This document shows, piece after piece, positions 23,337-42,581 of a stretch of DNA of 42,581 nucleotides. Source of the stretch: Limnohabitans sp. Rim8. Lineage in GTDB: Bacteria; Pseudomonadota; Gammaproteobacteria; Burkholderiales; Burkholderiaceae_C. Where the stretch lies: assembly GCF_945869175.1 (NCBI RefSeq), contig NZ_CAMBNZ010000014.1:1-42581 (forward strand), written 5' to 3'. The stretch's first letter is position 1, and every line of letters starts with the position of its first letter. The notes below the pieces were generated by a model that saw only the letters and a list, made by a program, of their open reading frames with translations, did not search any database and had not been told where the DNA came from. Position numbers and translations under genes: made by a program.

Positions 23337-23360
23337 GCAGGCGGACTGGATTCGCTGGTA

Positions 23361-26976: not shown

Positions 26977-28959
26977 TCAGATTTTAAGCAGACGCCGCGC
27001 TTCGCTCACCACGGCTTCAGCCGTGATGTTGAAAAGCTTGTACAGCGCATCGGCTGAACCGCTGGCCCCAAAGCCGGTCATGCCCACAAAGCCGCCATCG
27101 AGTCCGAGATACGCGTCCCAGCCCTGGCGCACGGCGGCTTCGATGCCCACCCGAACACCGCCGCCCAAAACGCTTTGGCGGTAAGCCATATCTTGTGCAT
27201 TGAAGAGTTCCCAGCAGGGCAGGGATACCACGGCGGTTGCAATGCCCGATGATTCCAGCTGTCCCCGTGCGGTGACGGCCAGCGCCACTTCTGAGCCCGT
27301 GGCCAGCAGCGTGACCCGACGCGGGCCGCAGGTGGCTTCTTGCAGCACATAGCCTCCACGGCGGGCCAAGTTGTCGGGCGTGTGCGTGACGCGTACCAGA
27401 GGCAATGACTGACGTGCAAAGACCAGACTAACGGGGCCGGTGCGGTGGGCCAGTGCGGTTTCCCAGCATTCGGCAGCTTCCACCGCATCAGCAGGGCGCA
27501 TGACCAGCATGTTGGGCATGGCACGCAACGAGGCCAGAATTTCCACCGGCTGGTGAGTGGGTCCATTTTTCCCGATGCCAATTGAATCGTGGCTGAACAC
27601 GAATTTGACGGGCAGGCCCATGAGCGCTGCCATGCGCATGGCGGGGCGCTGGTAATCGGAAAAAGCCAGATAAGTGACCGACAGCGGTAGCACGCCGCCA
27701 TGCGCGGCCATGCCGTTGACCATGGCCCCCATCACATGCTCCCGTACGCCGCAATGCACATAGGCACCGGTTCGGTCGTCCGCGGTGAATGCCTTCAGGC
27801 CCCGCTTGTGGCTGGTGGGCGCTTCCAGATCGGCACAGCCCACCATGCGCTCAGGGATAAGGGGCGTCAGCAGGTCGTTGATTTCAGCCGAGAGGAAGAT
27901 GCCGCTCGGCGCTGTGGGGGCCTGCAGGGCTTGCTGCTTGTAGTCCAGCAACACCTGTTGCCAACCAGCGGGCAATTCGCCACGCATCACGCGTTCAAAC
28001 TCGTCGCGCTCGGCTGCAGGCAGAGCAGCCAGCCGCGCTTGCCAGACCGCGTATTCACTCAGGTGGCGCTGTCCCGCGGCGCGCCAAGCTTGCTGCACAT
28101 CGCTGGGCATTTCAAATGGGCCATGGGCCCAGCCCAGCAGTTCGCGTGCAGCTTGGGCGTCTTCGACAAACAAGCGTGCGCTGTGACCTCCGCGCTGGCC
28201 CTGCAAGCGGGCAATGCCCTTGGCGATCACGGTGCGACAGGCCAGCAAGGATGGACGTGGGTCGGCGCGTGCGGCATCCAGCGCGGCAGATACCGCTTCG
28301 ATGTCATGCCCGTCTATCTCGAGCACATGCCAGCCCGCCACACGAAAGCGCTGTGCCACGTCCTCGCTGATCGACAAGTCGGTACTGCCGTCGTCGGTGA
28401 TCTGGTTGTCGTCCCAAAGCAGCACCAGCTTGCCCAAGTGCAGGTGCCCTGCCAGCGAGATCATTTCTTGGCCCACGCCCTCTTGCAGGCAACCGTCGCC
28501 CACAAAGGCATAAGTGAAATGGTTGACCAGACCGTTGCCAAAGCGGGCGTTCAGATACGCTTCGGCCACTGCCATGCCCAAAGCATTGGCAATGCCCTGG
28601 CCCAGTGGACCCGTGGTGACTTCGATGCCGATGGCGGGGTTGCGTTCCGGGTGGCCTTCGCAATGTGAGCCCAGTTCTCGAAAGCGCTGAATTTCTTCGA
28701 TCGGAAAGCCCGGGTAGCCCGTCAAGTGCAGCAGCGCATACAACAACATCGAGCCATGTCCATTCGACAGCACCACACGGTCGCGGTCAAACCAGTCGGG
28801 CTTTGATGGGTTGAATTTGAGGTGGCGTGTGTACAGCGCAGTGGCAATATCCGCCATGCCCAAGGGCACGCCCTGGTGGCCCTCTTGGGCTTTGACGATG
28901 GCGTCGATGGACAGAAAACGGATGGCGTGGGCCAGAGCTTGTTGGGGGTGAGTGCTCAT
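26977..28959 (-). CDS. tkt: Transketolase, full length
   Basis: Thiamine-diphosphate enzyme of 660 residues carrying two-carbon ketol units between sugar phosphates in the pentose phosphate and Calvin pathways. Seen: the N-terminal pyrophosphate domain with EGHQGVPLGMADIATALY and the ThDP motif starting FVGDGCLQEGVGQE, the pyrimidine-binding domain with YVHCGVREHVMGAMVNGMA, and the C-terminal domain. The canonical SGHPGAPMG block reads EGHQGVPLG and GDGCLMEG reads GDGCLQEG, so this is a somewhat divergent copy. The start ATG has only a weak ribosome site. The regulator at 29187 is 227 bases upstream on the same strand. Confidence 0.93.
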   Translation of the reverse strand: MSTHPQQALAHAIRFLSIDAIVKAQEGHQGVPLGMADIATALYTRHLKFNPSKPDWFDRDRVVLSNGHGSMLLYALLHLTGYPGFPIEEIQRFRELGSHCEGHPERNPAIGIEVTTGPLGQGIANALGMAVAEAYLNARFGNGLVNHFTYAFVGDGCLQEGVGQEMISLAGHLHLGKLVLLWDDNQITDDGSTDLSISEDVAQRFRVAGWHVLEIDGHDIEAVSAALDAARADPRPSLLACRTVIAKGIARLQGQRGGHSARLFVEDAQAARELLGWAHGPFEMPSDVQQAWRAAGQRHLSEYAVWQARLAALPAAERDEFERVMRGELPAGWQQVLLDYKQQALQAPTAPSGIFLSAEINDLLTPLIPERMVGCADLEAPTSHKRGLKAFTADDRTGAYVHCGVREHVMGAMVNGMAAHGGVLPLSVTYLAFSDYQRPAMRMAALMGLPVKFVFSHDSIGIGKNGPTHQPVEILASLRAMPNMLVMRPADAVEAAECWETALAHRTGPVSLVFARQSLPLVRVTHTPDNLARRGGYVLQEATCGPRRVTLLATGSEVALAVTARGQLESSGIATAVVSLPCWELFNAQDMAYRQSVLGGGVRVGIEAAVRQGWDAYLGLDGGFVGMTGFGASGSADALYKLFNITAEAVVSEARRLLKI

Positions 28960-29186
28960 GCTGCGGGCGCCGGCCGCCTTGGGCCCGGTCGCCTGTCTCC
29001 TGTGTTCTTAAACGGTAGCCGAGATTTTTGCCACCTGGATGCATGAAGGCAAGCGATGAATATTCAGGGTTGCATGAAAGTGGTTCAAGTAAAGATGTGG
29101 ACAGTTGTCGGCCACGAGCAGGTGGGTAAGCACCATCTTTCTATGCGCGTTGGTCGCATCAACCGGGTATTGGGATGGCAAGACAT
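28960..29186. other. Intergenic region between transketolase and LysR genes
   Basis: A 227-base gap with no convincing gene. It holds the upstream region of the transketolase gene; I see no clear terminator or palindrome. Confidence 0.6.
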
Positions 29187-30062
29187 TCAATTTGCTGCTT
29201 CCTCCCGCAACCATTCCACAAAACTTTTAACTTCAGGGCGTGAGGCGTGTCTAGCCGGGTAGACCATGAAGTGCGCTCGCACTTGCATGCACATGTTTTC
29301 TGCAAAAACGGGTTGCAATTTGCCGCTGGCGATCAACGATTGACCGATGCTGGTACTCTCAAGGGCCACACCGAGATTTTGGACAGCAGCATCCAAGCTC
29401 ATCATGGCCCGGTCAAAGCGCAGACCCATGCGCTCTGGGCGCTGATCACCACCGAACTTTAAAAACCATTCGGGCCACTGAACCACGCTGACGCTGGACT
29501 GGATCAGTGGCACACGCAAAAGATCTTGCGGCTCATGCAGGGCTAGGGTGCGGATGAATTCTGGGCTGGCCAAAGGCAGGATGTGTTCGGTGAAGACTGG
29601 CTCAACCTCCAGGTTGGGCCAGTTGGGCAGGCCGTAGCGTATGTCGATGTCCATCTGCCCGAGCTGAAAATCAGAATGCACATGCGAGGCCGACAGCATG
29701 AGCGAGATGTTGGGGTGCCGCTCGCCAAAGCGGGCGATGCGCGGCATCAGCCACAGGCTGGCAAAACTGGGGCTGCTGTGCACATACAGCGTGTCTTGGA
29801 CGCCATGACGCAGGTCTTCGGTCGCGGTGTTGATCGCACCCAATGCGCTGGCCACACGTTGCAGGTATTGCTGACCGGCAGGGGTCAGTTCCACGCCACG
29901 GGCCGAGCGCTCAAACAAGCGTACACCGAGCAAGCTTTCCAGCTTGGCCACCTGGTGGCTCACCGCCGATGGCGTCAGATGCAATTCTTCGGCCGCCAGT
30001 GCAAAACTCTTGCGGCGGGCGATGGTTTCAAAGGCCTGCAAGGCACTGAGTGGAGGAATCAT
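29187..30062 (-). CDS. LysR-family transcriptional regulator (GcvA type)
   Basis: Regulator of 291 residues: an N-terminal winged helix-turn-helix (SFALAAEELHLTPSAVSHQVAKLE) and a periplasmic-binding-type effector domain (VHSSPSFASLWLMPRIARF; MDIDIRYGLPNWP), the pattern of the GcvA/AmpR-like branch. ATG 30062 is chosen; TTG 30077 would add five residues. It diverges from another LysR gene of the same branch across a 221-base region that contains a 15-base inverted repeat. Likely targets are the transketolase gene downstream or the cassette beyond the second regulator; neither can be shown from sequence. Confidence 0.9.
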   Translation of the reverse strand: MIPPLSALQAFETIARRKSFALAAEELHLTPSAVSHQVAKLESLLGVRLFERSARGVELTPAGQQYLQRVASALGAINTATEDLRHGVQDTLYVHSSPSFASLWLMPRIARFGERHPNISLMLSASHVHSDFQLGQMDIDIRYGLPNWPNLEVEPVFTEHILPLASPEFIRTLALHEPQDLLRVPLIQSSVSVVQWPEWFLKFGGDQRPERMGLRFDRAMMSLDAAVQNLGVALESTSIGQSLIASGKLQPVFAENMCMQVRAHFMVYPARHASRPEVKSFVEWLREEAAN

Positions 30063-30102
30063 GGTTCGAGGATTCAATTAAACAGTTACGTTGCAAGAAG
30101 CA

Positions 30103-30117
30103 TCCAATCGGATTGGA
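30103..30117. promoter_or_regulatory. Inverted repeat between divergent LysR genes
   Basis: TCCAATC-G-GATTGGA is a perfect 7-base dyad around one base, 41 bases upstream of the minus-strand LysR start. Probable regulator-binding site, possibly autoregulatory. Confidence 0.5.
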
Positions 30118-30283
30118 AAGGAGTTTAAGTGGTTTGTCATGGCTGAGAGGTTGTATGGCCAGAGGGGATAATGTTTTAACTTTCAAGCCCAGAGCAAACA
30201 GCTGGCACAACCCACAGGCTTTTCATACTGTCCAGTTGATAAAGTGACACCCTCCTCTTATTGTTCAATCCTTTTACTTTGAT

Positions 30284-31225
30284 ATGACACTTCCTCTGCG
30301 GGCGATTGCTGTATTTGATGTGGTTGCGCGTTGCTGCAGTTTGACCAAGGCCGCGGCAGAACTGTATGTCACCCCTTCTGCTGTCAGCCAGCAGATCCAT
30401 TCACTCGAGCAGCATCTCGGCACGACCTTGCTCAAAAAGGCTGGGCGTGGCGTGGCCTTGACAGAGGCGGGTGAACGTTATTTCGAGATGATTGCGGAGG
30501 ATGTGCAGCGCATCACCGAGGCGACTCAACGTATTCGGGGCTTTCGTTCCCGTTCTGCTTTGACTGTGCGCACGACACCAACGCTTGGCAGCAAATGGTT
30601 GTTGCCGCGTTTGCAAAAATTTCTGGATGCTAACCCTGATGTCGAGTTGCGTCTGAACGCCACCACTGAGCCGACCGACTTCAGCCGAGAGGCTGTAGAT
30701 GTGGAGATTCGCCATGGGGAAGGCCAGTGGCCGGGCGTTTATGTGGAGGGCCTTGCTGAGGAAAACTTTCTGCCGGTTTGCGCGCCAAGCTATGCTCCGG
30801 CAAACAGCATGGATGCGGGCGAACTGGAGCAGCACCGTTTGATTTACTCGGTGAAAGCGCAGTTGCAATGGACGCAATGGTTTGCGTCAGCGGGTGTCAC
30901 GCCCTCTGCCGAATGGACCCGCTTGCTTTTTGACCGCAGTCACATGGCCATCGACGCTGCAGCCGATGGGCTGGGGGTCGCATTGGACAGCAATTTGATG
31001 ATGTGGCGAGAACTCCGCGAGGGCACACTGGTTTGCCCCGTGCGCAATTCGCCGCAGTTCAAGCTCACCACGCAATGGGTGGTCTGCCCTTTTGACCATT
31101 TGCGTAAGGCCAAAGTCCAACTGTTTTTGGAATGGTTGCGGCAAGAACGCTCGGAATGGCAAAACGAGCAGCGCTTGTTCACATTTTCTCCAGACGGCGT
31201 GAACGAAAGCGCTGACAAGCGCTGA
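30284..31225 (+). CDS. LysR-family transcriptional regulator (GcvA type)
   Basis: Regulator of 313 residues with the helix-turn-helix SLTKAAAELYVTPSAVSQQIHSLEQ and effector domain (VRTTPTLGSKWLLPRLQKFL; VDVEIRHGEGQWPG). It is similar in layout to the divergent LysR protein, and the two may descend from a duplication. It precedes the SAF dehydrogenase-TRAP-transketolase cassette on the same strand, separated by a 458-base AT-rich region, so it is the best candidate for cassette regulator. ATG 30284 gives the family-typical start; no strong ribosome site. The C-terminal 25 residues run past the usual end of the domain. Confidence 0.9.
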   Translation: MTLPLRAIAVFDVVARCCSLTKAAAELYVTPSAVSQQIHSLEQHLGTTLLKKAGRGVALTEAGERYFEMIAEDVQRITEATQRIRGFRSRSALTVRTTPTLGSKWLLPRLQKFLDANPDVELRLNATTEPTDFSREAVDVEIRHGEGQWPGVYVEGLAEENFLPVCAPSYAPANSMDAGELEQHRLIYSVKAQLQWTQWFASAGVTPSAEWTRLLFDRSHMAIDAAADGLGVALDSNLMMWRELREGTLVCPVRNSPQFKLTTQWVVCPFDHLRKAKVQLFLEWLRQERSEWQNEQRLFTFSPDGVNESADKR

Positions 31226-31683
31226 CATAGGGACAGGCTCCAGGCCGACTCAGCCTGATTGTTGACAGCCATCCGCTGCATCTGCCTGTGCATTGACTGG
31301 CGCAGAGCGTCCACTGGCTTGACGAGCAAGCCTTGCTTTTTGGTCTTTTCAGATCGCGCTGTCTTCCCCCCCTTGCCTTGCCGACACCAATGGCTGCAGA
31401 TCGATGCCCGTACCGGGTATGGCGTTGCACCGACTATCTTTAAGTTTTTCTAAACATAAAAATAATTTAAGTCAATGGACAAGATAAAGGCTTGAAATTA
31501 ATATTAATTAAATTTCGATTTCCTTGGGAATACTTAAATTATTTAAGTGCAACTCAAGAAAATAATCTTTAAAAATATTAATTGATTATTGAGATAATTT
31601 TCAGTTAATTATTAAATTTTATTTTTGGAAATCGATAGTTTTTGATTTAAGTAATTATTCATCATTCAAGGAAATGTCATTTT
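31226..31683. promoter_or_regulatory. AT-rich regulatory region upstream of the SAF-TRAP-transketolase cassette
   Basis: A 458-base gap without a gene. From about 31440 it is strongly AT-rich: 34 G/C bases in 180 (31501-31680) by hand count, against a GC-rich background. The octamer ATTTAAGT occurs at 31465-31472, 31541-31548 and 31645-31652; the middle copy is half of a perfect 17-base palindrome ACTTAAAT-T-ATTTAAGT (31532-31548). A promoter with operator or nucleoid-protein sites is the likely content. Confidence 0.65.
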
Positions 31684-33033
31684 ATGAACCTGGCCTCATT
31701 GCTCCAAAAGCGCGCTGCAGAAGCAGGACCTGTCCGTGTGGGCATCATCGGTGCCGGTAAATTTGGCTCCATGATGCTTGCGCAAGCTCGGCACATTGCC
31801 GGTTATCACGTTGTGGGGGTGGCAGATTTGAATGTCGCCAAAGCCCGGGAATCGCTCCAACGTGTCGGTTGGGAAGAGGATCAATACAGTGCCAAAACTC
31901 TGGGCGAGGCATACAAAACAGGTAAAACATGCATTGTGGATAACGCTGCCGCTTTAACAGAGTTCGAGGGCATCGAATGCGTGATTGAGGCCACTGGCCA
32001 CCCTATCTTTGGTGTACGGCACGCATTGCTGGCCATTGACCATGGCAAGCATGTGGTCATGGTCAACGTTGAAGCCGATGTGATGTGTGGCCCCTTGTTG
32101 GCGGCGCGGGCTAAGGCGAAAGGGGTGGTGTATTCGATGGCCTATGGGGACCAACCCGCATTCATGTGTGAATTGATTGACTGGGTCAGGTCTTGTGGTT
32201 TTGAGCTGACCGCCGCCGGCAAAGGCATGAACTTTGAGCCACGGTACCGTTATTCAACGCCCGATACGGTATGGGGGTACTTTGGATGGACTGAGGCAGA
32301 AGTCAAAGCGGGTGATTTCAACGCACAAATGTACAACTCGTTCACTGACGGGACGAAGGCGGCGATTGAAATGGCAGCCGTGGCCAATGGCACTGGATTG
32401 GATTGCCCTGATGCTGGCCTGGCCTTTTTACCCGCAGGTTTACAGGACTTGGCGAATGTCTTTAAACCCGCAGCAGACGGCGGACGTTTGGCGCGCAGCG
32501 GCTTGATCGACATCGCAGCCAGTCAAGAGCCGGACGGACGCGAGGTGCTCAACAATATTCGTTACGGCATGTTTGTGACGTTCAAGGCCCCTGACGAATA
32601 CACACGTGCTTGCTTCAAGCAGTACGGATTGTTGACTGACAAATCGGGTTGGTATGCCTCCATGTGGCGGCCTTTCCACTTGATTGGTCTGGAAACCAGT
32701 GTGAGTGTGTTGTCGGCTGTTTTGAGGGGGGAGGCCACTGGTTGCTCCAAAGAGTTCCGTGCTGATGCGGTGGCCACTGCGAAAACCGATTTGAAGGCCG
32801 GAGAAATGCTGGATGGTGAGGGTGGTTTTGCGGTCTGGGCCAATGCCATCCCCGCATCCAAGAGCCTGGCCTTGGATGCCTTACCCATCGGTTTGGCTCA
32901 CAAGGTAAAACTGATCAAGCCCGTCGCAAAAGACACTCCCGTGAGTTTCTCGGATGTCGAATTGGTGGACAACCTGGATGTGGTCGAATTCCGCAAGGAA
33001 TACACACGCACGCTGTTCAACCCGACGCTTTGA
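31684..33033 (+). CDS. NAD(P)-dependent oxidoreductase with C-terminal SAF domain (homoserine dehydrogenase-like)
   Basis: Protein of 449 residues. The N-terminal Rossmann fold (VGIIGAGKFGSMMLAQA, residues about 18-34) and homoserine-dehydrogenase-like middle part (VIEATGHPIFGVRHALLAI; VMVNVEADVMCGPLL) are followed by a SAF domain from about residue 365 (DLKAGEMLDGEGGFAVW). This family is annotated as a predicted homoserine dehydrogenase with SAF domain. It is found in carbohydrate and sugar-acid catabolic loci, and its reaction is not settled in my knowledge. It is the first gene of a colinear cassette; AAGGAAA lies upstream of ATG 31684. A SAF domain suggests binding of a sugar acid; this is inference. 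Confidence 0.85.
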   Translation: MNLASLLQKRAAEAGPVRVGIIGAGKFGSMMLAQARHIAGYHVVGVADLNVAKARESLQRVGWEEDQYSAKTLGEAYKTGKTCIVDNAAALTEFEGIECVIEATGHPIFGVRHALLAIDHGKHVVMVNVEADVMCGPLLAARAKAKGVVYSMAYGDQPAFMCELIDWVRSCGFELTAAGKGMNFEPRYRYSTPDTVWGYFGWTEAEVKAGDFNAQMYNSFTDGTKAAIEMAAVANGTGLDCPDAGLAFLPAGLQDLANVFKPAADGGRLARSGLIDIAASQEPDGREVLNNIRYGMFVTFKAPDEYTRACFKQYGLLTDKSGWYASMWRPFHLIGLETSVSVLSAVLRGEATGCSKEFRADAVATAKTDLKAGEMLDGEGGFAVWANAIPASKSLALDALPIGLAHKVKLIKPVAKDTPVSFSDVELVDNLDVVEFRKEYTRTLFNPTL

Positions 33034-33049
33034 ACGGGGTGCCTGGTTC

Positions 33050-33373
33050 ATGACAAAGGATGCCCATGTTTCTCACGCACCCGATGCGTTTGTGGTGATC
33101 GCTGAGTTTGTCGTCAAAGAGGGCTTGCTGGATGCTTTTTTGTCCCATGCGATGGACGACGCCCAGCATTCTCTGTCCGACGAAGTCGACTGTCTGCAGT
33201 TTGATGTGCTGCGCACGTCTGACAGTGGCAATGGCGTTTTGTTTTACGAGGTTTACAGGTCGAAAACAGCTTTCGAGACACACCTCGAGACCCCTCATGT
33301 GCAATGGTTTAGAAGCATTTTGGCCAAACATGTGGCGGCCGAGCGACCTGTGCGGATGTTGACGCGGTCTTGA
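33050..33373 (+). CDS. ABM-fold monooxygenase/isomerase-like small protein
   Basis: A 107-residue protein of the antibiotic biosynthesis monooxygenase (ABM, dimeric alpha-beta barrel) superfamily. It is recognised from FVVIAEFVVKEGLLDAFLSHAMDDAQHSL, the block CLQFDVLRTSDSGNGVLFYEVY, then FETHLETPHVQWF. Related proteins include YgiN (quinol monooxygenase) and LsrG, an isomerase of a phosphorylated diketone sugar in autoinducer-2 breakdown. The LsrG-like role would suit a carbohydrate cassette better, but the sequence does not decide. It starts 16 bases after the SAF dehydrogenase and is followed by a 205-base gap in which I see no gene. Confidence 0.82.
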   Translation: MTKDAHVSHAPDAFVVIAEFVVKEGLLDAFLSHAMDDAQHSLSDEVDCLQFDVLRTSDSGNGVLFYEVYRSKTAFETHLETPHVQWFRSILAKHVAAERPVRMLTRS

Positions 33374-33578
33374 GTTTGTTCATTGCTGGGGAGCCCCTTG
33401 TCATTTTCTGCAACATGGAGATCGTTGAAAAAGCAGGGCCTATTTCGAGAAGTATTGCTGCAGTGCCGCATGAAAAAAACTAAAGTAGAGATGAGTTTAT
33501 GTCGCTTGTCTTCATGTTTGAAGCTCTGGAGAATCCCGCCATTCATCATCACCTGCTCGTTAATTGAAGGAGACAAAC

Positions 33579-34328
33579 ATGCTGTTAAAAAATAAGGTCG
33601 CAGTCATCACTGGAGGCGCGGGTTTAAATGGACTGGGCTTTGCCACGGCGACCATGATGGCTGAGCAAGGCGCCAAGGTGGTGATTTTGGATTTGGAGGT
33701 GGCTGACCCCAAGGCAGCCGCAGAGCGGCTGGGATCCGGCCACCTAGGCCTGGTTGCAAACGTCACCGACAAGGCTTCTTGTGAAGCGGCTGTGGCCCAG
33801 ATCAAAGCCCAATATGGTCGCATTGATATTTTGGTCAACAACGCCGGCATCACCCAACCGGTCAAGTTTCTGGACATCACCGGTCAGGACTATGACCGTG
33901 TTCTGGATGTGAGCTTACGCGGCACTTTGTATGCTTCACAAGCCGTGTTGCCAGCGATGATTGCGCAAAACAGCGGCTCTATCGTTTGCATCTCCTCAGT
34001 ATCCGCACAACGCGGTGGCGGGATCCTCGGCGGCCCGCATTATTCGGCCGCCAAAGCCGGTGTGCTGGGTTTGGCACGCGCTATGGCGCGCGAATACGGC
34101 GGCAACAACATTCGGGTGAACTGCGTGACCCCTGGTTTGATTGCCACCGACATCAACAAAGGCAAGATTCCTGAAGACAAGCGCCAAGGCATTTTGGATG
34201 GCATCCCATTGGCCCGAATTGGCGAGCCGAACGACGTGGCCGGTTGCGTGGTTTTTTTAGCAAGCGACTTGTCCAAGTATTGCACCGGCGTGACGTTGGA
34301 TGTTAACGGCGGAATGCTGATTCACTGA
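33579..34328 (+). CDS. Short-chain dehydrogenase/reductase
   Basis: Classical SDR of 249 residues. Cofactor motif TGGAGLNGLGFA (GxxxGxG-like), the aspartate after beta-2 (VVILDLEVAD) favouring NAD(H), the structural NNAG motif, and the catalytic Ser (CISSVSAQ) with YSAAK. A near-perfect ribosome site (GAAGGAGA) precedes ATG 33579 and sets the start. In this setting it most likely oxidises a hydroxyl of the imported sugar, polyol or sugar acid; a FabG-type fatty-acid role is unlikely because of the neighbours. Substrate not readable from sequence. Confidence 0.88.
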   Translation: MLLKNKVAVITGGAGLNGLGFATATMMAEQGAKVVILDLEVADPKAAAERLGSGHLGLVANVTDKASCEAAVAQIKAQYGRIDILVNNAGITQPVKFLDITGQDYDRVLDVSLRGTLYASQAVLPAMIAQNSGSIVCISSVSAQRGGGILGGPHYSAAKAGVLGLARAMAREYGGNNIRVNCVTPGLIATDINKGKIPEDKRQGILDGIPLARIGEPNDVAGCVVFLASDLSKYCTGVTLDVNGGMLIH

Positions 34329-34345
34329 TTTCGATTTCACCCACC

Positions 34346-34364
34346 ACCACGGCAGCGCCGTGGT
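34346..34364 (+). promoter_or_regulatory. Hairpin between SDR and dctP genes
   Basis: ACCACGGC (34346-34353) and GCCGTGGT (34357-34364) form a perfect 8-bp stem with a 3-base loop AGC, 22 bases before dctP. There is no long T-run, so it is more likely an mRNA-stabilising or processing hairpin protecting the abundant dctP message than a full terminator. Confidence 0.55.
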
Positions 34365-34386
34365 TCATTTCAACCAAGGAGACATC

Positions 34387-35376
34387 ATGAAAAATTCAAA
34401 TACCTTCCGTCGCAGCCTGTTGGTGGCGTCTTTGCTTTTGGCTACCTCGGCAGTCCAGGCTCAGGCGGTCAAACTCACGCTGGGACATGGCACCGCGATC
34501 GATAACCCTCGACATGTGGCCTCATTGAAGTTTGCTGAGGTGGCCAAGGCCAAAAGCAATGGCCGCATCGAAGTGACTGTGGCCCCGGCCGCCCAGTTGG
34601 GTGACGACGCCGCCATGGTGACGGCCTTGCGCACTGGTGCGCTCGACATGTCGGCCAACTCACAGGGTGCATTGGCCAATGCCGTGCCCGAGTACGCGGC
34701 ATTCGGTATGCCCTTCCTGTTTTCTAGCCAAGCTCAGGCCTGGAAGGTGATGGATGGACCCACAGGAAAAGAGTTGGCCCAAAAATCGGCCGAAAAAGGC
34801 CTGATTGTTTTGGGTTACTGGGACAACGGTATCCGCCACATGAGCAACAACAAGCGCCCACTGCTCAAGCCCGAGGATTTGAAGGGTCTGAAAATGCGCA
34901 CGCCACCGGATTCTGTGACTGTGGACATCATGCAAAGCGTGGGTGCCGAGGCACAACAGATCAAGTTTTCTGAGCTCTACGTGGCACTGCAGCAAGGGGT
35001 CGTCGACGGGCAGGAAAACCCGCTGGTCAACGTGCAAGCAGGCAAGTTGTACGAAGTGCAAAAGTACATCTCACTGACCGGGCACAAGTACGAGATGACG
35101 CCCTTCTTGATTGGCAAGCGTGCTTGGGACAAGTTGTCTGATGGCGATAAAAAGATCGTTCAGGAAGCCGCCAATGAGTCGACTGCGCTGCAACGTAAAT
35201 TGGCACAAGAAGCCGATGACAAGATGTTTGTCGAACTCAAAGCCAAAGGCGTGCAAATCGACAAAGTGGACCAAGCCCCATTTGAAAAGGCCACTGCGCC
35301 TGTGTTGGCCAAGTGGGAAGCCAGCCCTATCGGCCCGTTTGTGAAGAAAGTCGTGGCCGCTGCGCGCGCCAAATAA
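34387..35376 (+). CDS. dctP: TRAP transporter substrate-binding protein DctP
   Basis: Periplasmic solute receptor of a TRAP transporter, 329 residues. A signal peptide (MKNSNTFRRSLLVASLLLATSAVQAQA) is followed by VKLTLGHGTAIDNPRHVASLKFAEVA. The conserved arginine that grips the substrate carboxylate lies in LKGLKMRTPPD, and the family block is VVDGQENPL. The arginine implies an acid, usually a sugar acid or C4/C5 organic acid, though some members bind neutral sugars. AAGGAGA lies upstream of ATG 34387. It forms a complete transporter with dctQ and dctM; a 139-base gap to dctQ may allow higher expression. Confidence 0.93.
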   Translation: MKNSNTFRRSLLVASLLLATSAVQAQAVKLTLGHGTAIDNPRHVASLKFAEVAKAKSNGRIEVTVAPAAQLGDDAAMVTALRTGALDMSANSQGALANAVPEYAAFGMPFLFSSQAQAWKVMDGPTGKELAQKSAEKGLIVLGYWDNGIRHMSNNKRPLLKPEDLKGLKMRTPPDSVTVDIMQSVGAEAQQIKFSELYVALQQGVVDGQENPLVNVQAGKLYEVQKYISLTGHKYEMTPFLIGKRAWDKLSDGDKKIVQEAANESTALQRKLAQEADDKMFVELKAKGVQIDKVDQAPFEKATAPVLAKWEASPIGPFVKKVVAAARAK

Positions 35377-35515
35377 GCAGCATAAAAATAGTCGGCATTG
35401 TAAAAATGCGCTGACCACAAGTGCAGGATAAACGGCTGACTTCAACGCGCTATTGCCCTGTTCACGACCCGCATCGTTGCTGGCCAGCGAGGCGGGTCAT
35501 TTTGGAGATTCATTC

Positions 35516-36049
35516 ATGACCGCAGTCATAGTCGAGCGCAACGCGCTTGAACGGGCGATCGTGGTCATCTGCAGCTTCGTGCTGTGGGTGACGATGGTTT
35601 CGATTTTCTTGATCTTGGCCGCCAACACCCTGCTTCGGTATGCATTTGGCACCAGTTTGCAATGGGCCAACGAGGTTCCCGAGTTGTTGTTCCCATGGTT
35701 GGTCATGTCCGGTGTCGTACTGGCCGCCGAAAAAGGCTCGCACATCGCGACGGTGTTCCTGGTGGAGTCGGTCAGGCCTGCGGTAAAACGTGTGATTGCT
35801 ATCGTGTCCTGGAGCGCAGTCGCGGTGTTGTACGCGGTGCTGGTTCGCGCAACTTGGAACATGCTTGAAATCGTGCACGACGAGAAAACGCCCATTTTGC
35901 TCATCCCGACATCGGTGACTTACGGTTGTCTAATGGTAGGCATGGGGATGCTGGTGCTGCTGGCACTCCAATCCGCCTCCAGGGCTTGGCGTGGTGTGCG
36001 CGTGGTGCGGGACAGTTCAGAGCCAGGTGCGCAAGCCGCGCAAGGATAA
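35516..36049 (+). CDS. dctQ: TRAP transporter small permease DctQ
   Basis: Small membrane subunit of the TRAP transporter, 177 residues with four hydrophobic segments. The DctQ signature is seen as TLLRYAFGTSLQWANEVPELLFPWLVMSGVVLAAE. GGAG lies before ATG 35516. The C-terminus is a short polar tail. The dctM ribosome site (AAGGA) overlaps the end of this gene, giving tight coupling. Confidence 0.92.
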   Translation: MTAVIVERNALERAIVVICSFVLWVTMVSIFLILAANTLLRYAFGTSLQWANEVPELLFPWLVMSGVVLAAEKGSHIATVFLVESVRPAVKRVIAIVSWSAVAVLYAVLVRATWNMLEIVHDEKTPILLIPTSVTYGCLMVGMGMLVLLALQSASRAWRGVRVVRDSSEPGAQAAQG

Positions 36050-36054
36050 GCACC

Positions 36055-37314
36055 ATGACTTTATTGATTTTGATCGTATTTTTGGGTGCGGCAACATTGG
36101 CCATGCCCATTGCACACGCCATTTTGTTGGCGGCACTGGCCGCTGCGGTCAGCAGCGACCGGGTTCCGTTTGACCTGCTGGTCCAGCAAATGGTGGCACA
36201 GGTGCAAAGCTTTCCATTGATCGCCATTCCGTTTTTCATGCTCACGGGTTCGCTCATGATGGGGGGCAAACTCGGCCAGGCCATCGTGGGCACTTTGACG
36301 GTTTTGGTCGGTCGTTGGCACGGTGGGCCTGCTCAGGTCAGCGTGTTGTCGTCAACTTTGTTTGGTGGTGTGTCGGGTTCAGCGGTGGCCGATGCATCGG
36401 CCATTGGTTCCTTGGTCATGCCCTGGCACCGCAGGCTGGGTTATCCCATGCCTTTTTCGGCGGCCTCGCTGGCGTCTGCGGCCACCATCGACATCATCAT
36501 CCCACCCTCGATTCCCATGATTTTGTACGCCATGAGTGCGAACGCGTCGATCGGGGCCTTGTTTTATGCGGGTATCTTGCCTGGTCTTATTTTATGCGGC
36601 GGCTTCATGGCGGCTTGCTGGTATGTGGGCAAGCGCGATAACTTACCGCGCGAGACTGGGCCGACTGACCGTGCAGAGTTTCGGCGCAACTTGGTGTATT
36701 CGATTCCAGCCATTGCATTGCCGATATTGATCATCGTATTTTTGCGTTTCGGCATCGCCACGCCAACCGAGGTGGCCGTGTTGTCCACTCTCTTTGCCGG
36801 CTTGGTGTCGCTGGTGATTTATCGCGACTTAACGATTCGGCGTCTGCACCACGCCATCCTCGAGGCCGGTTTGGCAACGGGTGTGGTGCTGATGGTGATC
36901 ATGGCCTCAGCGGCCATTGGCTGGTTGCTGACCTTTGACCAGATGCCGCAACTCATCGTGCAGTGGGTGCAGCAAAACGTGAACGAAAAGTGGGTCGTCA
37001 TCGCGCTGATGAACGCCATGATGCTGTTCCTGGGTATGTTCATTGACCTGCCCGCTGCCGTGCTGCTGCTGACCCCCGTATTCCTGCCCTTAGCGCAAGC
37101 GATTGGCATGGACACGGTGCAACTGGGCATCATGATGGTGGTCAACTTGGCCATTGGACTTTACACCCCACCTGTGGGCACCACCTTGTTCATCGCCAGT
37201 TCGCTGGCCAGGGTCAAAGTGGGCGAAACCGTGCGTGCCATGGTGCCGTTTTATGTGGTGGCCTTCGGTGTCTTGATGCTGGTTTCATATGTTCCCGCAG
37301 TCATTTTGAAATGA
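36055..37314 (+). CDS. dctM: TRAP transporter large permease DctM
   Basis: Sodium-coupled transport subunit of the TRAP system, 419 residues with about twelve hydrophobic segments. Family motifs: IPFFMLTGSLMMGGKLG near residue 60, LFGGVSGSAVADASAIGSLVMP near residue 105, IIIPPSIPMILYAMSANASIGALF, and LYTPPVGTTLFIASSLARV near the C-terminus. ATG 36055 begins five bases after dctQ; the frame is open further upstream but would overlap dctQ. The next gene, the split transketolase N subunit, follows at 24 bases, so transporter and enzymes appear to be one operon. Confidence 0.94.
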   Translation: MTLLILIVFLGAATLAMPIAHAILLAALAAAVSSDRVPFDLLVQQMVAQVQSFPLIAIPFFMLTGSLMMGGKLGQAIVGTLTVLVGRWHGGPAQVSVLSSTLFGGVSGSAVADASAIGSLVMPWHRRLGYPMPFSAASLASAATIDIIIPPSIPMILYAMSANASIGALFYAGILPGLILCGGFMAACWYVGKRDNLPRETGPTDRAEFRRNLVYSIPAIALPILIIVFLRFGIATPTEVAVLSTLFAGLVSLVIYRDLTIRRLHHAILEAGLATGVVLMVIMASAAIGWLLTFDQMPQLIVQWVQQNVNEKWVVIALMNAMMLFLGMFIDLPAAVLLLTPVFLPLAQAIGMDTVQLGIMMVVNLAIGLYTPPVGTTLFIASSLARVKVGETVRAMVPFYVVAFGVLMLVSYVPAVILK

Positions 37315-37338
37315 CCGCATTGACCCTCCGGAGATCTC

Positions 37339-38178
37339 ATGTCAGTGACCAATGACCGTTTGTCAGAAGTGGCGCGCTGCGCTTACCGTATTCGCCGATA
37401 CGCCTTGCGCATGGGCGAGGTTCAAGGTCAGGGTTATATCGGTCAGGCTTTGGGTTATGCCGATGTATTGGCTGTGGCCTATGGCCACGCGCTGAAATTT
37501 CGCCCCGGAGAATCGGGATGGGACGGCCGGGACCGCTTCTTGTTGTCACATGGCCATTACGCCATCGCGTTTTACGCCGCTCTGATCGAAGCCCGAATCA
37601 TTGGCGAAGAGGAGCTCGAAACCTATGGCAGCGACGACAGCCGCTTGCCCATGTCGGGCATGGCCAGCTACACGCCGGGCATGGAAATGTCGGGGGGCTC
37701 TCTGGGGCAGGGCTTGCCCATTGCCGTGGGCATGGCGCTGGCCCTGCGTCACAAAAAAAATCCGGCTTTTGTCTACAACTCCATGTCGGACGGTGAGTTG
37801 GACGAGGGCTCGACTTGGGAAGGCGCCATGGCTGCCGCTCACCATGGGCTGGGCAACTTGATTTGCATCGTCGATATCAACAACCAACAAGCCGATGGGG
37901 CGTCTTCCAAAGTGTTGGGCTTTGAGCCGCTGGCCGACAAGTGGGCCTCCTTTGGCTGGCACGTGCAGCGCGTGGATGGCAACCATTTGCCCGCTGTGTT
38001 GCGCGCGTTCGACACTGCTCGCCAGTTGACTGACGCCAAACCCCGTGTGATCCTGTGCGATACGCTGATGGGCAAGGGTGTGCCCTTCCTTGAAACCCGC
38101 GAGAAGAACCACTTCATCCGCGTCGATCCACCCGAGTGGCAAGAAGCCCTGCGTGTGCTGGACGAATCCCAAAACTAA
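37339..38178 (+). CDS. Split transketolase, N-terminal (ThDP-binding) subunit
   Basis: A 279-residue protein matching the N-terminal half of transketolase. It has the SHGHYA motif, SGGSLGQGLPIAVGMALAL and the ThDP/metal motif beginning SDGELDEGSTWEGAM and ending INN, where full-length enzymes have GDGE/C. Paired subunits of this kind occur in specialised catabolic pathways and act on unusual ketoses. ATG 37339 has GGAG upstream. It needs the C subunit encoded 11 bases downstream. Substrate unknown. Confidence 0.9.
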   Translation: MSVTNDRLSEVARCAYRIRRYALRMGEVQGQGYIGQALGYADVLAVAYGHALKFRPGESGWDGRDRFLLSHGHYAIAFYAALIEARIIGEEELETYGSDDSRLPMSGMASYTPGMEMSGGSLGQGLPIAVGMALALRHKKNPAFVYNSMSDGELDEGSTWEGAMAAAHHGLGNLICIVDINNQQADGASSKVLGFEPLADKWASFGWHVQRVDGNHLPAVLRAFDTARQLTDAKPRVILCDTLMGKGVPFLETREKNHFIRVDPPEWQEALRVLDESQN

Positions 38179-38189
38179 AGGCATCCATC

Positions 38190-39194
38190 ATGAACGCCGT
38201 CATAGAAAAGAAACTCCGCCTGACCACCTCGGCCATGATCGCTTCGATTGCGTCCGATGGTCAACGTGTGCAGGCCGCTCCTTTTGGCAAGGCCTTGGTC
38301 GAATTCGCTGCAAACCGCCCCGACATCGTGGGCATGACCGCCGACTTGGGCAAGTACACTGATCTGCACCTGTTTGAGCAGGCTTTCCCTGAACGCTTTT
38401 TTCAGATGGGCATGGCCGAGCAATTGCTCATGGCTGCAGCCGGTGGCATGGCCAAGGAGGGCCTGATTCCGTTTGCCACCACCTATGCGGTGTTTGGCAC
38501 GCGCCGCGCTTATGACTTCATTCACCAGGTGATCGCCGAAGAAAACCTGAATGTCAAGATCTGCTGCGCCTTGCCCGGTCTGACCACCGGTTATGGCCCC
38601 AGCCATCAGGCCACGGAAGACTTGGCCATGATGCGCGCTATTCCCGGTCTGACCATCGTTGACCCTTGCGACGCACTGGACATTGAACAGGCTGTGCCGC
38701 AAATCGCCGAACACCAAGGCCCGGTTTACATGCGCCTGTTGCGCGGTAATGTGCCCTTGGTGCTGGACGAATACGACTACAAGTTTGAATTGGGCAAAGC
38801 CAAGATGCTGCGCGAGGGCGCGGATGTGCTGGTGATCTCCAGTGGTTTCATGACCATGCGCACCTTAGAGGTGGCCAAGCAACTTGAAGCAGACAGGGTG
38901 AGTGTGGCCGTGCTGCACTGTCCGACCATCAAACCGCTGGACGAATCCACCCTCTTGGCCGAGGTGCGTAAGCCGGGTCGTCTGGTGGTGGTGGCCGAGA
39001 ACCATTCCATCGTGGGCGGTCTGGGCGAGGCGGTGGCGAGCCTACTCATGCGCGAAGGGGTGATGCCCACCAAGTTCCGCATGTTGGCGCTGCCCGATGC
39101 TTTCTTGGATGCAGGCGCTTTGCCCACCTTGCATGACCGCTACGGCATTTCGGCTGAAAAGATGAACAGCCGCATCAAGGCTTGGCTGGCCTGA
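38190..39194 (+). CDS. Split transketolase, C-terminal subunit
   Basis: A 334-residue protein matching the C-terminal half of transketolase. The pyrimidine-binding domain contains FFQMGMAEQLLMAAAGGMAKEG, with the catalytic glutamate that activates ThDP, and FATTYAVFGTRRAYDFI. The C-terminal domain has ADVLVISSGFMTMRTLEVA and VVAENHSIVGGLGEAVA. It completes the enzyme with the preceding subunit. ATG 38190 has AAAGG upstream. Its last 20 bases overlap the 3' end of the convergent LysR gene, a real overlap of two well-supported reading frames. Confidence 0.92.
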   Translation: MNAVIEKKLRLTTSAMIASIASDGQRVQAAPFGKALVEFAANRPDIVGMTADLGKYTDLHLFEQAFPERFFQMGMAEQLLMAAAGGMAKEGLIPFATTYAVFGTRRAYDFIHQVIAEENLNVKICCALPGLTTGYGPSHQATEDLAMMRAIPGLTIVDPCDALDIEQAVPQIAEHQGPVYMRLLRGNVPLVLDEYDYKFELGKAKMLREGADVLVISSGFMTMRTLEVAKQLEADRVSVAVLHCPTIKPLDESTLLAEVRKPGRLVVVAENHSIVGGLGEAVASLLMREGVMPTKFRMLALPDAFLDAGALPTLHDRYGISAEKMNSRIKAWLA

Positions 39195-40086
39195 AGACCT
39201 CCGCCACAAAGTCCACAAAAGCCCGCACCCGTGCGGCTGATTTGTGCTGGGCCGGATAGACCGCATAAATGTCCGCATCAGGTGTGTGGTGCTGCGGCAG
39301 CAGATGCACCAGCTGGCCTTGCCGCAGCGGGTTGCGAATGTCCCACTCGGCGCGCATCAAGATGCCGTGCCCGTCCAGCGCCCATTGCACGGCGATGCTG
39401 CCGTCGTTGGTGGTCAGGTTGCCACGGGTTTTGATGGTTTCAGTTTTGCCATGGCGTCCGCGAATGAGCTTGATCACCCCATAAGCCTCGCCGCCTTGGC
39501 GGATGCTGATGAAGTTGTGCCGGGCCAGATCGGCCGTGGTTTTGGGTTCGCCGTGGCGCGCGATGTAGGCGGGCGATGCGCAAAGCAGGCGCTGGTTGCT
39601 TGCGATCTTGCGGGCAATCACCCGGGCGTCGGGTGGCGGGCCAAAGCGTATGCACACATCGAAGGCATCGTCACTCAGCGAGGGCGGGTCGACCGAGAGT
39701 TGCAATTGCACATCGACCTGCGGGTACTGCTGCGCAAAGCGGCTGATCAGCGGGCCGATGTGACTGCGCCCAAAACCCAAGGTCGCATTCACCCGCAGCA
39801 GGCCGCTGGGCGTGGAGCGGCTGGTGCCGAGTTGCTGCTCCAGGTCGGCCATTTCGGCCAGGATGCTTCGCGCGTGGCGCAGCACGGTTTCGCCTTCCAC
39901 CGTCAGGCTCATGCGCCGTGTGGTGCGGTTGACCAAGGGCAAGCCCAGCCGAGTCTCCATTTGCGACAGGCGTTTGCTGACGGCAGCCGTGGTGATGCGC
40001 AGCTCGCGGGCTGCCCCGCTCAAGCTGCCGGCCATGGCCAAAGCTGCAAAAAAGCCCAAATCGGCGGCTTGCAAGCGAGGTTCCAT
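39175..40086 (-). CDS. LysR-family transcriptional regulator
   Basis: Regulator of 303 residues, CrgA/DsdC-like branch. The helix-turn-helix is in SLSGAARELRITTAAVSKRLSQME, and the effector domain has LRVNATLGFGRSHIGPLISRF and DVCIRFGPPPDARVIARK. ATG 40086 gives the family-typical MEPRLQAADLGFF; upstream frame runs through the promoter region. It diverges from the tartrate dehydrogenase-like gene with 101 bases between, the usual arrangement for a LysR activator of that gene. Its 3' end overlaps the transketolase C-subunit gene by 20 bases. Confidence 0.92.
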   Translation of the reverse strand: MEPRLQAADLGFFAALAMAGSLSGAARELRITTAAVSKRLSQMETRLGLPLVNRTTRRMSLTVEGETVLRHARSILAEMADLEQQLGTSRSTPSGLLRVNATLGFGRSHIGPLISRFAQQYPQVDVQLQLSVDPPSLSDDAFDVCIRFGPPPDARVIARKIASNQRLLCASPAYIARHGEPKTTADLARHNFISIRQGGEAYGVIKLIRGRHGKTETIKTRGNLTTNDGSIAVQWALDGHGILMRAEWDIRNPLRQGQLVHLLPQHHTPDADIYAVYPAQHKSAARVRAFVDFVAEVFRPAKP

Positions 40087-40187
40087 TGTTGATCTCAAGT
40101 TAACAGTGAATTGAATTTTAGGGTGTTTATTGAGATGGCTGCACCGCAGAATGTAGCCATCCATTTTTAACCAAAAGCACCAAGCCC

Positions 40188-41252
40188 ATGAAAACCTACC
40201 GCATCGCCACCATTCCCGGAGACGGCATCGGCAAAGAAGTCATTCCCGCTGGCCAGCAAGTCATGGAGGTGCTGGCCAAAGCTTGTGGCAACTTTGCTTT
40301 TGAATTTGAAAACTTTGGCTGGGGCGGAGACTATTACCGTGAGCACGGCCTGATGATGCCGGCCGATGGCCTGGACGCGCTGCGCAACAAGGACGCGATT
40401 CTTTTCGGCTCAGCGGGTGACCCCCACAGCCCGGACCACATCACGCTGTGGGGCCTGCGCCTGAAGATTTGTCAAGGCTTTGACCAGTATGCCAATGTGC
40501 GCCCTACGCGCATCCTGCCCGGCATCGACGCGCCCCTCAAGCGCTGCACACCCAAAGACCTGGACTGGGTCATCGTGCGTGAGAACTCCGAAGGCGAATA
40601 TTCCGGCGTGGGTGGCCGTGTGCACCAAGGCCACCCGATCGAGGCGGCCACCGATGTGTCCATCATGACCCGCGCAGGCGTGGAGCGCATCTTGCGTTAC
40701 GCCTTCAAACTGGCGCAGTCGCGCCCACGCAAGCTGCTCACGGTGGTGACCAAGAGCAATGCCCAGCGCCACGCGATGGTGATGTGGGACGAGATCGCGT
40801 TACAGATCTCCAAAGAATTCCCTGATGTGAAGTGGGACAAAGAACTGGTCGATGCGGCCACTGCCCGCATGGTCAACCGTCCAGCAAGCCTGGACACCCT
40901 CGTTGCCACCAACTTGCATGCCGACATCTTGAGCGATTTGGCCGCGGCATTGGCGGGCAGTTTGGGCATTGCACCCACCGGCAACATTGATCCCGAGCGC
41001 CGCTACCCCAGCATGTTTGAACCCATTCATGGTTCAGCCTTTGACATCATGGGCAAGGGCCTGGCCAACCCAGTGGGCACCTTCTGGTCGGTGGTCATGC
41101 TGCTGGAGCATCTGGGCGAGCACGCCGCTGCACAGCGTTTGATGCAGGCGGTAGAGGCTGTGACGGCCAACCCGGCACTGCACACCGGTGACTTGGGCGG
41201 GAAAGCCCTAACAGTCGATGTCACCCAGGCGGTATGCAAGGCCTTGGCTTGA
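40188..41252 (+). CDS. ttuC: Tartrate dehydrogenase/D-malate dehydrogenase
   Basis: Decarboxylating beta-hydroxyacid dehydrogenase of 354 residues. NAD- and metal-dependent members oxidise tartrate to oxaloglycolate and D-malate to pyruvate. Visible: YRIATIPGDGIGKEVIPAG at the N-terminus, the substrate loop DHITLWGLRLKICQGFDQYANVRPTRILPG, VIVRENSEGEYSGVGGR, metal aspartates in NLHADILSDLAAALAG, and EPIHGSAFDIMGKGLANP. The TLWGLRLKICQGFDQYANVRP region fits tartrate/D-malate enzymes rather than LeuB or Icd. A LysR gene diverges upstream and a Bug protein and glycerate kinase gene follow, matching a tartrate/hydroxypyruvate route. Tartrate versus D-malate preference cannot be settled here. Confidence 0.9.
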   Translation: MKTYRIATIPGDGIGKEVIPAGQQVMEVLAKACGNFAFEFENFGWGGDYYREHGLMMPADGLDALRNKDAILFGSAGDPHSPDHITLWGLRLKICQGFDQYANVRPTRILPGIDAPLKRCTPKDLDWVIVRENSEGEYSGVGGRVHQGHPIEAATDVSIMTRAGVERILRYAFKLAQSRPRKLLTVVTKSNAQRHAMVMWDEIALQISKEFPDVKWDKELVDAATARMVNRPASLDTLVATNLHADILSDLAAALAGSLGIAPTGNIDPERRYPSMFEPIHGSAFDIMGKGLANPVGTFWSVVMLLEHLGEHAAAQRLMQAVEAVTANPALHTGDLGGKALTVDVTQAVCKALA

Positions 41253-41322
41253 GGCGATGATGCAGTCTGTCCATGTCCTGGCGAATGAATTTTTGATCCC
41301 CTAATCTTTGAAAGGTTTGAAC

Positions 41323-42312: not shown

Positions 42313-42329
42313 CCCCAGCTTGCAAACGA

Positions 42330-42375
42330 AAAAGGGTGCATCGGCTTCGGGGCTGGTGCACCCTTTTGGTTTTTT
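42330..42375 (+). terminator. Strong intrinsic terminator after the Bug gene
   Basis: An 11-bp perfect stem AAAAGGGTGCA (42330-42340) / TGCACCCTTTT (42357-42367) with a 16-base loop is followed by GGTTTTTT. It ends the ttuC-bug transcript 17 bases after the stop, so the next gene probably needs its own promoter or read-through. Confidence 0.9.
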
Positions 42376-42435
42376 CGGGTGTTGGTCTGCAGTGCCTTTA
42401 TCCTTGAAGCCTTTTCAGACCAAGACCTTTAGCCC

Positions 42436-42581
42436 ATGACAGATCCACAAACCTTGTTGCGCCACCTGTACAACGTGGCGGTGAAGCGAGCATTGCCCCT
42501 GCACAACACGGTGGCCCATTTGCCCCCACCGCCGAAAGGCCGCACCTTGGTGCTGGGTGCGGGCAAAGCCGGGGGGGCGAT
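42436..42581 (+). CDS. Glycerate 2-kinase / hydroxypyruvate reductase-type protein (N-terminal fragment)
   Basis: First 48 codons of a gene that runs off the window. The translation begins MTDPQTLLRHLYNVAVKRA and continues with PPPPKGRTLVLGAGKAGGA, the N-terminus of the GckA/TtuD (MOFRL) family. Members phosphorylate D-glycerate to 2-phosphoglycerate and have been annotated as hydroxypyruvate reductase in tartrate loci. With the tartrate dehydrogenase-like gene upstream it would complete conversion of tartrate-derived hydroxypyruvate or glycerate to glycolysis. The ribosome site is weak. A run of seven G lies at the window edge. Confidence 0.82.
   Translation, partial: MTDPQTLLRHLYNVAVKRALPLHNTVAHLPPPPKGRTLVLGAGKAGGA

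Follow-up and report, generated by a model that had tools for sequence, protein, structure and literature searches.

A split-transketolase module of Pseudomonadota, joined in Limnohabitans by an inserted DXR-II-like oxidoreductase unit, as a probable kinase-free ketol-transfer system for sugar acids

The window analysed here is a stretch of 42,581 nt from Limnohabitans sp. Rim8 (contig NZ_CAMBNZ010000014.1 of assembly GCF_945869175.1, forward strand; genome ~90% complete), and the locus of interest is a run of genes at 31684-39194 that encodes a SAF-domain oxidoreductase (DRL), a small ABM-domain protein, a short-chain dehydrogenase/reductase (SDR), a tripartite ATP-independent periplasmic (TRAP) importer (DctP, DctQ, DctM) and the two subunits (TKN and TKC) of a split transketolase (TK). 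A preliminary description of this DNA had listed eight colinear genes of these families, and we recovered all eight open reading frames (ORFs), each on the + strand, together with the corresponding Pfam families (Table 1). Outside the eight-gene span lie a divergent LysR gene and a full-length TK gene, both associated with the TK module, as well as a second LysR gene, which belongs with DRL. Measured from chosen start codons (for some genes the frame starts would give slightly different values), the gaps are approximately 16 bp (DRL-ABM), 205 bp (ABM-SDR), 58 bp (SDR-DctP), 139 bp (DctP-DctQ), 5 bp (DctQ-DctM), 24 bp (DctM-TKN) and 11 bp (TKN-TKC). The locus is a composite, in which a LysR-DRL-ABM unit has been inserted into a conserved, putative acid-sugar module.

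Table 1. Genes of the composite locus, with window coordinates and the matches on which each assignment is based.
Feature	Position	Strand	Evidence
Full-length transketolase, dedicated paralogue recurring with the module	26977..28959	-	TIGR00232 above cut-off
LysR regulator of the SDR/TK module, divergent	29187..30077	-	Pfam HTH_1 and LysR_substrate; 89% identical protein in the same place in L174
LysR going with DRL, inserted	30284..31225	+	80% and 67% identical to the DRL-adjoining LysR of L051 and L030
DXR-II-like (DRL/DLO) oxidoreductase with SAF domain, inserted	31684..33033	+	PF21135 DRL_cat 1.5e-53; SAF at cut-off
Small ABM-domain protein, inserted with DRL	~33050..33373	+	PF03992
SDR dehydrogenase, module core	33579..34328	+	PF13561
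TRAP solute-binding protein DctP	~34387..35376	+	PF03480
TRAP small permease DctQ	~35516..36049	+	PF04290
TRAP large permease DctM	~36055..37314	+	PF06808
Split transketolase N-terminal (thiamine diphosphate-binding) subunit TKN	37339..38178	+	PF00456; best PDB match 6yak N component
Split transketolase C-terminal (pyrimidine and C) subunit TKC	38190..39194	+	PF02779 and PF02780; best PDB match 6yaj/6yak C component

We typed 58 loci by tblastn, namely 16 plasmid records (from 194 matches), 40 genome stretches (taken from own-genome, phylum and family matches and picked for spread, not at random), locus L222 and the window; the 56 loci other than L222 and the window are referred to as sampled loci, and the neighbourhood is the region within 9 kb of TKC. 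TKN was found near TKC in all 58 loci and an SDR at least 52% identical to that of the window in 53, while the remaining five each hold a beta-hydroxyacid dehydrogenase (bHAD) that shares at least 40% identity with its counterpart in the Skermanella or the Pantoea module, the one in L173 being a short ORF at 41%. In 51 of the 58 the pair is accompanied by a TRAP or major facilitator superfamily (MFS) importer that matches the references used. TKC relatives occur in 44 of 299 family genomes and 24 of 398 phylum genomes (E<=1e-90), and in 2 of 369 genomes of the class draw (E<=1e-70), the own genome being included in each count, and 189 of the 194 plasmid records carry a TKC match at least 60% identical to that of the window. 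The core of LysR, SDR, TRAP importer and split TK is widespread and conserved across Pseudomonadota, and the grouping of the genes goes beyond chance because the SDR/TRAP/TK part recurs across the phylum and the DRL part does so separately. The TK pair is annotated only as 'transketolase' and 'transketolase family protein', and the literature searched, with partial coverage, held no description of the gene set. Matches at 40% identity or more to the GntK and PfkB references, the kinase families covered by the scan, were absent from the neighbourhood in all 58 loci, and the (incomplete) annotation of 15 annotated plasmid loci places no sugar kinase inside the TK operon; on the L114 plasmid, an annotated ribokinase and allose kinase lie in a separate gene run ~8 kb away. 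The genome of the window also contains a second split-TK pair (L173; G000:C82, 94-3502; TKC 87%, TKN 83%), which is adjoined by the short bHAD ORF and an integrase-core ORF.

The composite nature of the window is revealed by locus L174 of a genome of the same genus (G013), which reads, with reverse-strand genes marked by <, full-length TK<, LysR<, SDR, DctP, DctQ, DctM, TKN, TKC, LysR< and tartrate dehydrogenase. The proteins share with those of the window, in the same order, 85, 89, 92, 65, 45, 60, 87, 92, 86 and 96% identity. The LysR-SDR spacing in L174 is ~143 bp, without DRL or ABM, at the place where the window holds LysR-DRL-ABM (30284-33373), and no counterpart of the DRL-type LysR (30284..31225) lies between LysR and SDR there. 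L174 is thus the same locus without DRL and ABM, which identifies LysR-DRL-ABM as an insertion; furthermore, DRL (at least 60% identical) is near TKC in only one of the 40 sampled genome stretches and in none of the 16 plasmids, and its presence in the window is therefore the derived state. The proposal that all eight genes constitute one conserved pathway cassette does not survive this comparison, and the exact eight-gene order was found in no other locus examined, the Roseococcus locus L078 having all eight gene types in a different order. The inserted LysR and DRL are 80 and 77% identical to a neighbouring pair in Rubrivivax (L051) and 67 and 79% identical to one in Herbaspirillum (L030), and the GC content of DRL (0.547) and ABM (0.524) is mildly lower than that of the window (0.589). 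The importer, too, has apparently been swapped within the conserved operon, since the window TRAP proteins are nearer to those of other genera (DctM: 78% to L113, 82% to L195) than to those of G013: across 34384-37314 the TRAP proteins are 45-65% identical to those of L174, compared with 87-92% for the SDR and TK proteins.

Alignment with the split TK of C. hydrogenoformans revealed that the thiamine diphosphate motif (SDG...N, with Ser for the first Gly of GDG) and the catalytic Glu (MAE77Q) are kept in the window split TK, together with a set of replacements in the pocket: DLSKST reads DLGKYT (Ser to Y56), THAGLTVGEDG reads ALPGLTTGY-G (His to L128, Glu-Asp to a single Y135), SGHPGG reads QGYIGQ (His to Y33), and the His of QGHP is S106. 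None of the five residues Y56, L128, Y135, Y33 and S106 varies among the 53 aligned sequences of the respective subunit, and Tyr and Ser replace the His residues aligned with H26 and H100 of E. coli TK (EcTK; numbering in part from the excerpted text of PMC7661550). The phosphate-orienting motif is RSFHR in canonical transketolases and RAFDR in sulfofructose TK, according to the excerpted text of PMC11659671; both are absent here, the split TK reading A29-Y56-Y99-L128-R185 (position 29, aligned by hand, is A, P, S or T in 52 of 53 sequences, and its neighbour 28 is K or R in 34 of 53). Of the 56 sampled loci, 11 carry, in the 9-kb neighbourhood of TKC, a full-length TK at least 55% identical to the one in the window (the window copy, more than 9 kb away, is not counted), and in 13 of 13 aligned copies of this module paralogue GED has become G[KRT]N, with Asn for Asp. 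Judged by these residues, the split-TK pair forms a class of its own, whose substrate pocket is fixed and non-canonical, and both the pair and the full-length TK of the module look specialised, probably in a manner that avoids phosphorylated donors. The initial idea that a kinase-free TK acts on a non-phosphorylated ketose thus appears sound: the phosphate residues are replaced, the two reference kinases have no 40% match within 9 kb in any of the 58 loci and the importers are of a kind expected to carry acid sugars.

The first gene product had been called a SAF dehydrogenase; the SAF domain stands (at cut-off), and the protein is more exactly assigned, on its sequence and a predicted structure, to the DXR-II-like (DRL/DLO) oxidoreductases, a group of uncharacterised reaction. 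Its only PDB sequence matches are the Brucella DXR-II entries 3upl and 3upy (2.6e-56, 29-30% identity), and an AlphaFold model (mean pLDDT 89.6, from an 18-row alignment) matches the fold of 3upl with TM values of 0.89/0.91. The excerpted text of PMC3847144 describes Lys191, Lys193 and Thr229 as anchoring fosmidomycin or substrate in Brucella DXR-II, and the DLO proteins as uncharacterised, with four tested DLOs failing to rescue a DXR mutant. In DRL, Lys191 is kept as K180, Lys193 is replaced by Met182 and Thr229 by Ala226; M182 and A226 occur in all 13 close DRL relatives aligned, and five distant ones have Thr/Ser. The two changed anchors argue against a phosphorylated substrate of the 1-deoxyxylulose 5-phosphate kind. 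The contexts of distant DLO genes (PhyH with GntR; a pyridoxal-phosphate enzyme; fructosamine kinase) gave no clue to the DRL reaction. A second DLO of the window's genome (L213; G000:C1, 8996-11927; 48% identity) is clustered, apparently as one operon, with genes for a GntR/FCD regulator and a phytanoyl-CoA-dioxygenase-like protein, and matches of about this strength were found in 14 of 35 other genus genomes searched. On a Phaeobacter plasmid (L028), a DLO (47%) lies between a dihydroxy-acid dehydratase gene and a gene of the SMP-30 lactonase family, a context pointing to sugar-acid metabolism for another DLO.

A genome scan with a DRL alignment yielded 576 confirmed stretches, the best 80 of which were kept; 63 of the 80 hold close relatives (at least 62% identical), and the gene counts in these 63 loci, eight of which are shorter than 12 kb, are lower bounds. 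ABM is present in 35, a bHAD resembling tartronate-semialdehyde reductase (TSR) in 29, a DctM-type permease in 30 and a kinase in 14 (GntK-type in nine, PfkB-type in six, both in L065). The split TK occurs in 11 of the 63 close DRL loci. All 11 have the SDR and five the full-length TK, none has the TSR-like bHAD (0 versus 5.1 expected, hypergeometric 0.0005), and none has a GntK/PfkB kinase (0 versus 2.4 expected, P 0.047). The thought that a kinase might join the genes elsewhere thus holds for those 14 of the 63 close DRL loci and for none of the 11 that bear the TK. A TKC tree was built from 69 loci, of which 13 are DRL-linked, DRL loci being over-represented in the sample; its well-supported branches require that the DRL-TK link was gained or lost at least four times, and the linked loci differ in gene order. 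In view of these repeated gains or losses and of the missing bHAD and kinases, we conclude that the association of the DRL and TK modules is a recurrent one, in which SDR and TK seem to take the place of the bHAD/kinase branch of other DRL loci. One tree locus, L067, comes from a record with the label Enemella evansiae (Actinomycetota), yet its TKC falls among those of Rhodobacterales records, and the assembly is possibly mislabelled or contaminated.

Clues to the substrate come from the importer and the dehydrogenases. DctP aligns with the carboxylate-binding Arg152, Arg173 and Asn213 and with acidic residue 76 of 4p47 (hand-counted; binding residues from the excerpted text of PMC11668362), and its six best PDB matches include 7bbr and 4x8r, for which the same excerpt gives 2-keto-3-deoxygluconate (KDG) and glucuronate as ligands, most TRAP ligands having co-purified, and erythronate or pantoate as ligands of other TRAP structures. 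By these residues and relatives DctP argues for an acid as the likely ligand, not for a chain length. The erythronate/pantoate structures are presumably 4pdd, 4p9k and 4pdh. In Pantoea agglomerans, the TRAP importer is replaced by an MFS transporter (D-galactonate family TIGR00893, 348 bits, cut-off 395), and loci from Rhizobium and Agrobacterium have in addition an ABC sugar importer (its Rhizobium-type binding protein had no PDB match at 1e-30) and an amidohydrolase, whose sole NCBIfam match in Agrobacterium L232 is L-fucono-1,5-lactonase (105 bits, cut-off 400). These transporters and the amidohydrolase are consistent with a sugar acid as substrate, whether taken up as such or formed from a sugar through its lactone. 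The SDR matches gluconate 5-dehydrogenase/KduD-type models below their cut-offs, and its sole PDB match at 1e-50, a chain named 3-oxoacyl-ACP reductase, is uninformative. The module bHADs score 308-335 bits against the L-threonate dehydrogenase model in four modules and 208 in Pantoea (cut-off 350), and a D-2-hydroxyacid dehydrogenase, which recurs in 5 of the 56 sampled loci, scores 185-190 bits against the glyoxylate reductase model (cut-off 455).

We propose that the importer, here of the TRAP type, would take up a small polyhydroxy acid, that the SDR would oxidise the carbon adjoining its CH2OH end to give HOCH2-CO-CHOH-(CHOH)n-COO-, and that the split TK would move the two-carbon ketol to a sugar-phosphate acceptor (e.g. 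glyceraldehyde 3-phosphate (GAP), giving xylulose 5-phosphate), releasing an aldehyde acid: glyoxylate from a C4 acid, tartronate semialdehyde from a C5 acid or tartrate semialdehyde from a C6 acid. A kinase would be dispensable because the acceptor supplies the phosphate, and the full-length TK may serve in regenerating the acceptor. The inserted DXR-II-like oxidoreductase would make or widen the supply of acid for the SDR/TK step, either as a plain dehydrogenase of a C4-C6 acid or by an oxidation with skeletal rearrangement like its DXR-II relative. To this composite reading, an acid-sugar module with kinase-free ketol transfer by a split TK, supplied with acid through LysR-DRL-ABM, we assign a probability of roughly 0.58. 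Within it, a C4 acid (tetronate) is slightly favoured, on two weak hints, the L-threonate-dehydrogenase-like bHAD and the 2-hydroxyacid dehydrogenase with its glyoxylate reductase match; its odds are lowered by the C6 acids among the published ligands of DctP relatives, and this version is by itself doubtful. Less likely still is a bolder version in which the DXR-II-like enzyme couples oxidation of a branched or linear sugar acid to a rearrangement of its carbon skeleton, and the split TK cleaves the resulting non-phosphorylated ketose acid, a kinase-free route to xylulose 5-phosphate that would, at the same low odds, be the catabolic counterpart of a step of the methylerythritol phosphate (MEP) pathway.

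The sequences show the gene families, the conserved core, the insertion, the recurring DRL-TK link and the altered substrate pocket; the substrate, every reaction and its direction we infer. Several observations weigh against this proposal. No importer matching the references used was found in 7 of the 58 loci, and the kinase absence rests on two references at 40% identity and on incomplete annotation of 15 plasmid loci. The DctP relatives, which include the C6-acid binders 7bbr and 4x8r, give C4 no preference; each of the C4 hints stays below its curated cut-off; and C5 or C6 acids would suit equally well the Rhizobium-type loci with ABC importer and lactonase-like gene and the module that has an L-idonate-5-dehydrogenase-like gene beside it. 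The exclusion between TK and TSR-like bHAD falls to P ~0.05 when the eight Rhodobacterales-type loci count once; moreover, five of the 11 DRL-TK loci have a bHAD of the L-threonate-dehydrogenase type (43-48%), and only two have ABM. Finally, 56 of the 69 TKC-tree loci are without DRL and 52 of the 63 close DRL loci without TK, and DRL may therefore serve a different substrate.

This mostly separate occurrence is also an argument for the most credible alternative, somewhat less than an even bet, that DRL-ABM and SDR/TK are two independent acid-sugar systems which share a neighbourhood, with DRL outside the transketolase route; the insertion of LysR-DRL-ABM as a unit with its own LysR and the 205-bp gap between ABM and SDR agree with it, whereas the repeated gains or losses of the DRL-TK link in differing gene orders, and the lack of TSR-like bHAD and GntK/PfkB kinases in 11 of 11 DRL-TK loci, speak against it. 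Rather unlikely is a C6 route in which 5-ketogluconate, the product of the SDR or of an idonate-type dehydrogenase, is cleaved by the split TK to tartrate semialdehyde and a ketol unit. Transketolase cleavage of 5-ketogluconate has been proposed for plants (excerpted text of PMC11066805) and reported with an engineered E. coli TK (excerpted text of PMC12016104), and the route draws further on the SDR matches to gluconate 5-dehydrogenase/KduD-type models, the L-idonate-5-dehydrogenase-like gene and the C6 acids bound by 7bbr and 4x8r; however, those SDR matches stay below cut-offs and the bHAD of several modules is L-threonate-dehydrogenase-like. The preliminary description had suggested, as one possibility, hydroxypyruvate as ketol donor, which the neighbouring tartrate/glycerate genes could supply. 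A tartrate dehydrogenase above cut-off is indeed encoded at 40188-41252, hydroxypyruvate is a donor of the C. hydrogenoformans split TK (excerpted text of PMC7661550), and the D-2-hydroxyacid dehydrogenases of five sampled loci are compatible with this scheme, but a tartrate dehydrogenase is near the module in only 2 of the 58 loci, the window and its same-genus relative L174, and a hydroxypyruvate donor would assign no function to the conserved SDR or the acid importer. We consider this donor improbable and reject the tartrate link as a general feature.

Two further roles are so improbable that we reject them. An isoprenoid role, with DRL as a DXR-II replacing DXR in precursor supply and unrelated to catabolism, would suit the identity and shared fold with Brucella DXR-II, but the genome has a canonical DXR (PF02670), two of the three anchor residues differ, and a DctM-type permease and a TSR-like bHAD recur at close DRL loci (30 and 29 of 63). 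Action of ABM, SDR and TK on a diketose like autoinducer-2 (AI-2), with ABM as LsrG isomerase, takes its cue from the LsrG model NF007791, the only NCBIfam match of ABM, which scores 30 bits against a cut-off of 135; ABM (at least 40% identical) is near TKC in none of the 56 sampled loci and in 2 of the 11 DRL-TK loci, and none of the eight cassette proteins matches the LsrK or LsrF family.

Elsewhere in the window, purine catabolism genes occupy 10148-26866 (xanthine dehydrogenase subunits, urate oxidase (PF06181), 8-oxoguanine deaminase and an OHCU decarboxylase fused to an M20 hydrolase). The window has no tRNA gene, Rfam gave no match in 26900-42581, and promoter-like matches (9 versus 5.1 +/- 2.1 expected) and terminator-like matches (17 versus 14.3 +/- 3.9) are near background.

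Our composite reading has relatives among known pathways. In D-apiose catabolism, the split TK AptAB (apulose-4-phosphate transketolase) acts after a kinase, and the D-apionate oxidoisomerase ApnO couples oxidation to carbon migration; AptAB is alike in being a catabolic split TK and ApnO is a precedent for a DRL-type step, whereas no GntK/PfkB reference match at 40% identity or more accompanies the TK in our 58 loci. The OtnK/OtnC tetronate pathway uses a kinase and a decarboxylase; if the substrate is a C4 acid, it would be of the same kind, possibly with the same 3-oxo-tetronate intermediate, and a transketolase would replace those two enzymes in the proposed scheme. The cassette has no DUF1537 kinase, the one PF07005 match of the ~90% complete genome being on another contig. 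DXR-II and the DLO1 and DLO2 proteins (excerpted text of PMC3847144) share with DRL the catalytic domain, the SAF domain and the fold, and differ from it in the Lys193 and Thr229 anchors and in the transport/dehydrogenase cluster around the window gene. The C. hydrogenoformans split TK (excerpted text of PMC7661550) has the same two-chain architecture and is the best PDB match of both subunits, yet its RSFHR is replaced here, with two His changed to Tyr and Ser. A parallel in kind is the sulfofructose transketolase SqwGH of the sulfo-TK pathway, a two-subunit enzyme that transfers a ketol to GAP from a ketose without phosphate, with xylulose 5-phosphate as product (excerpted text of PMC11659671); its RAFDR is absent here, and an acid importer and an SDR adjoin the window split TK. 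The module is a conserved, apparently uncharacterised catabolic one of a known general kind, kinase-free split-TK ketol transfer, with a conserved pocket of its own. A common gene pair that is annotated only as transketolase gains a testable role, and the locus offers a genomic handle on the function of orphan DXR-II-like oxidoreductases. If the proposal is true, bacteria would possess a kinase-free route that feeds small sugar acids into the pentose phosphate pathway.

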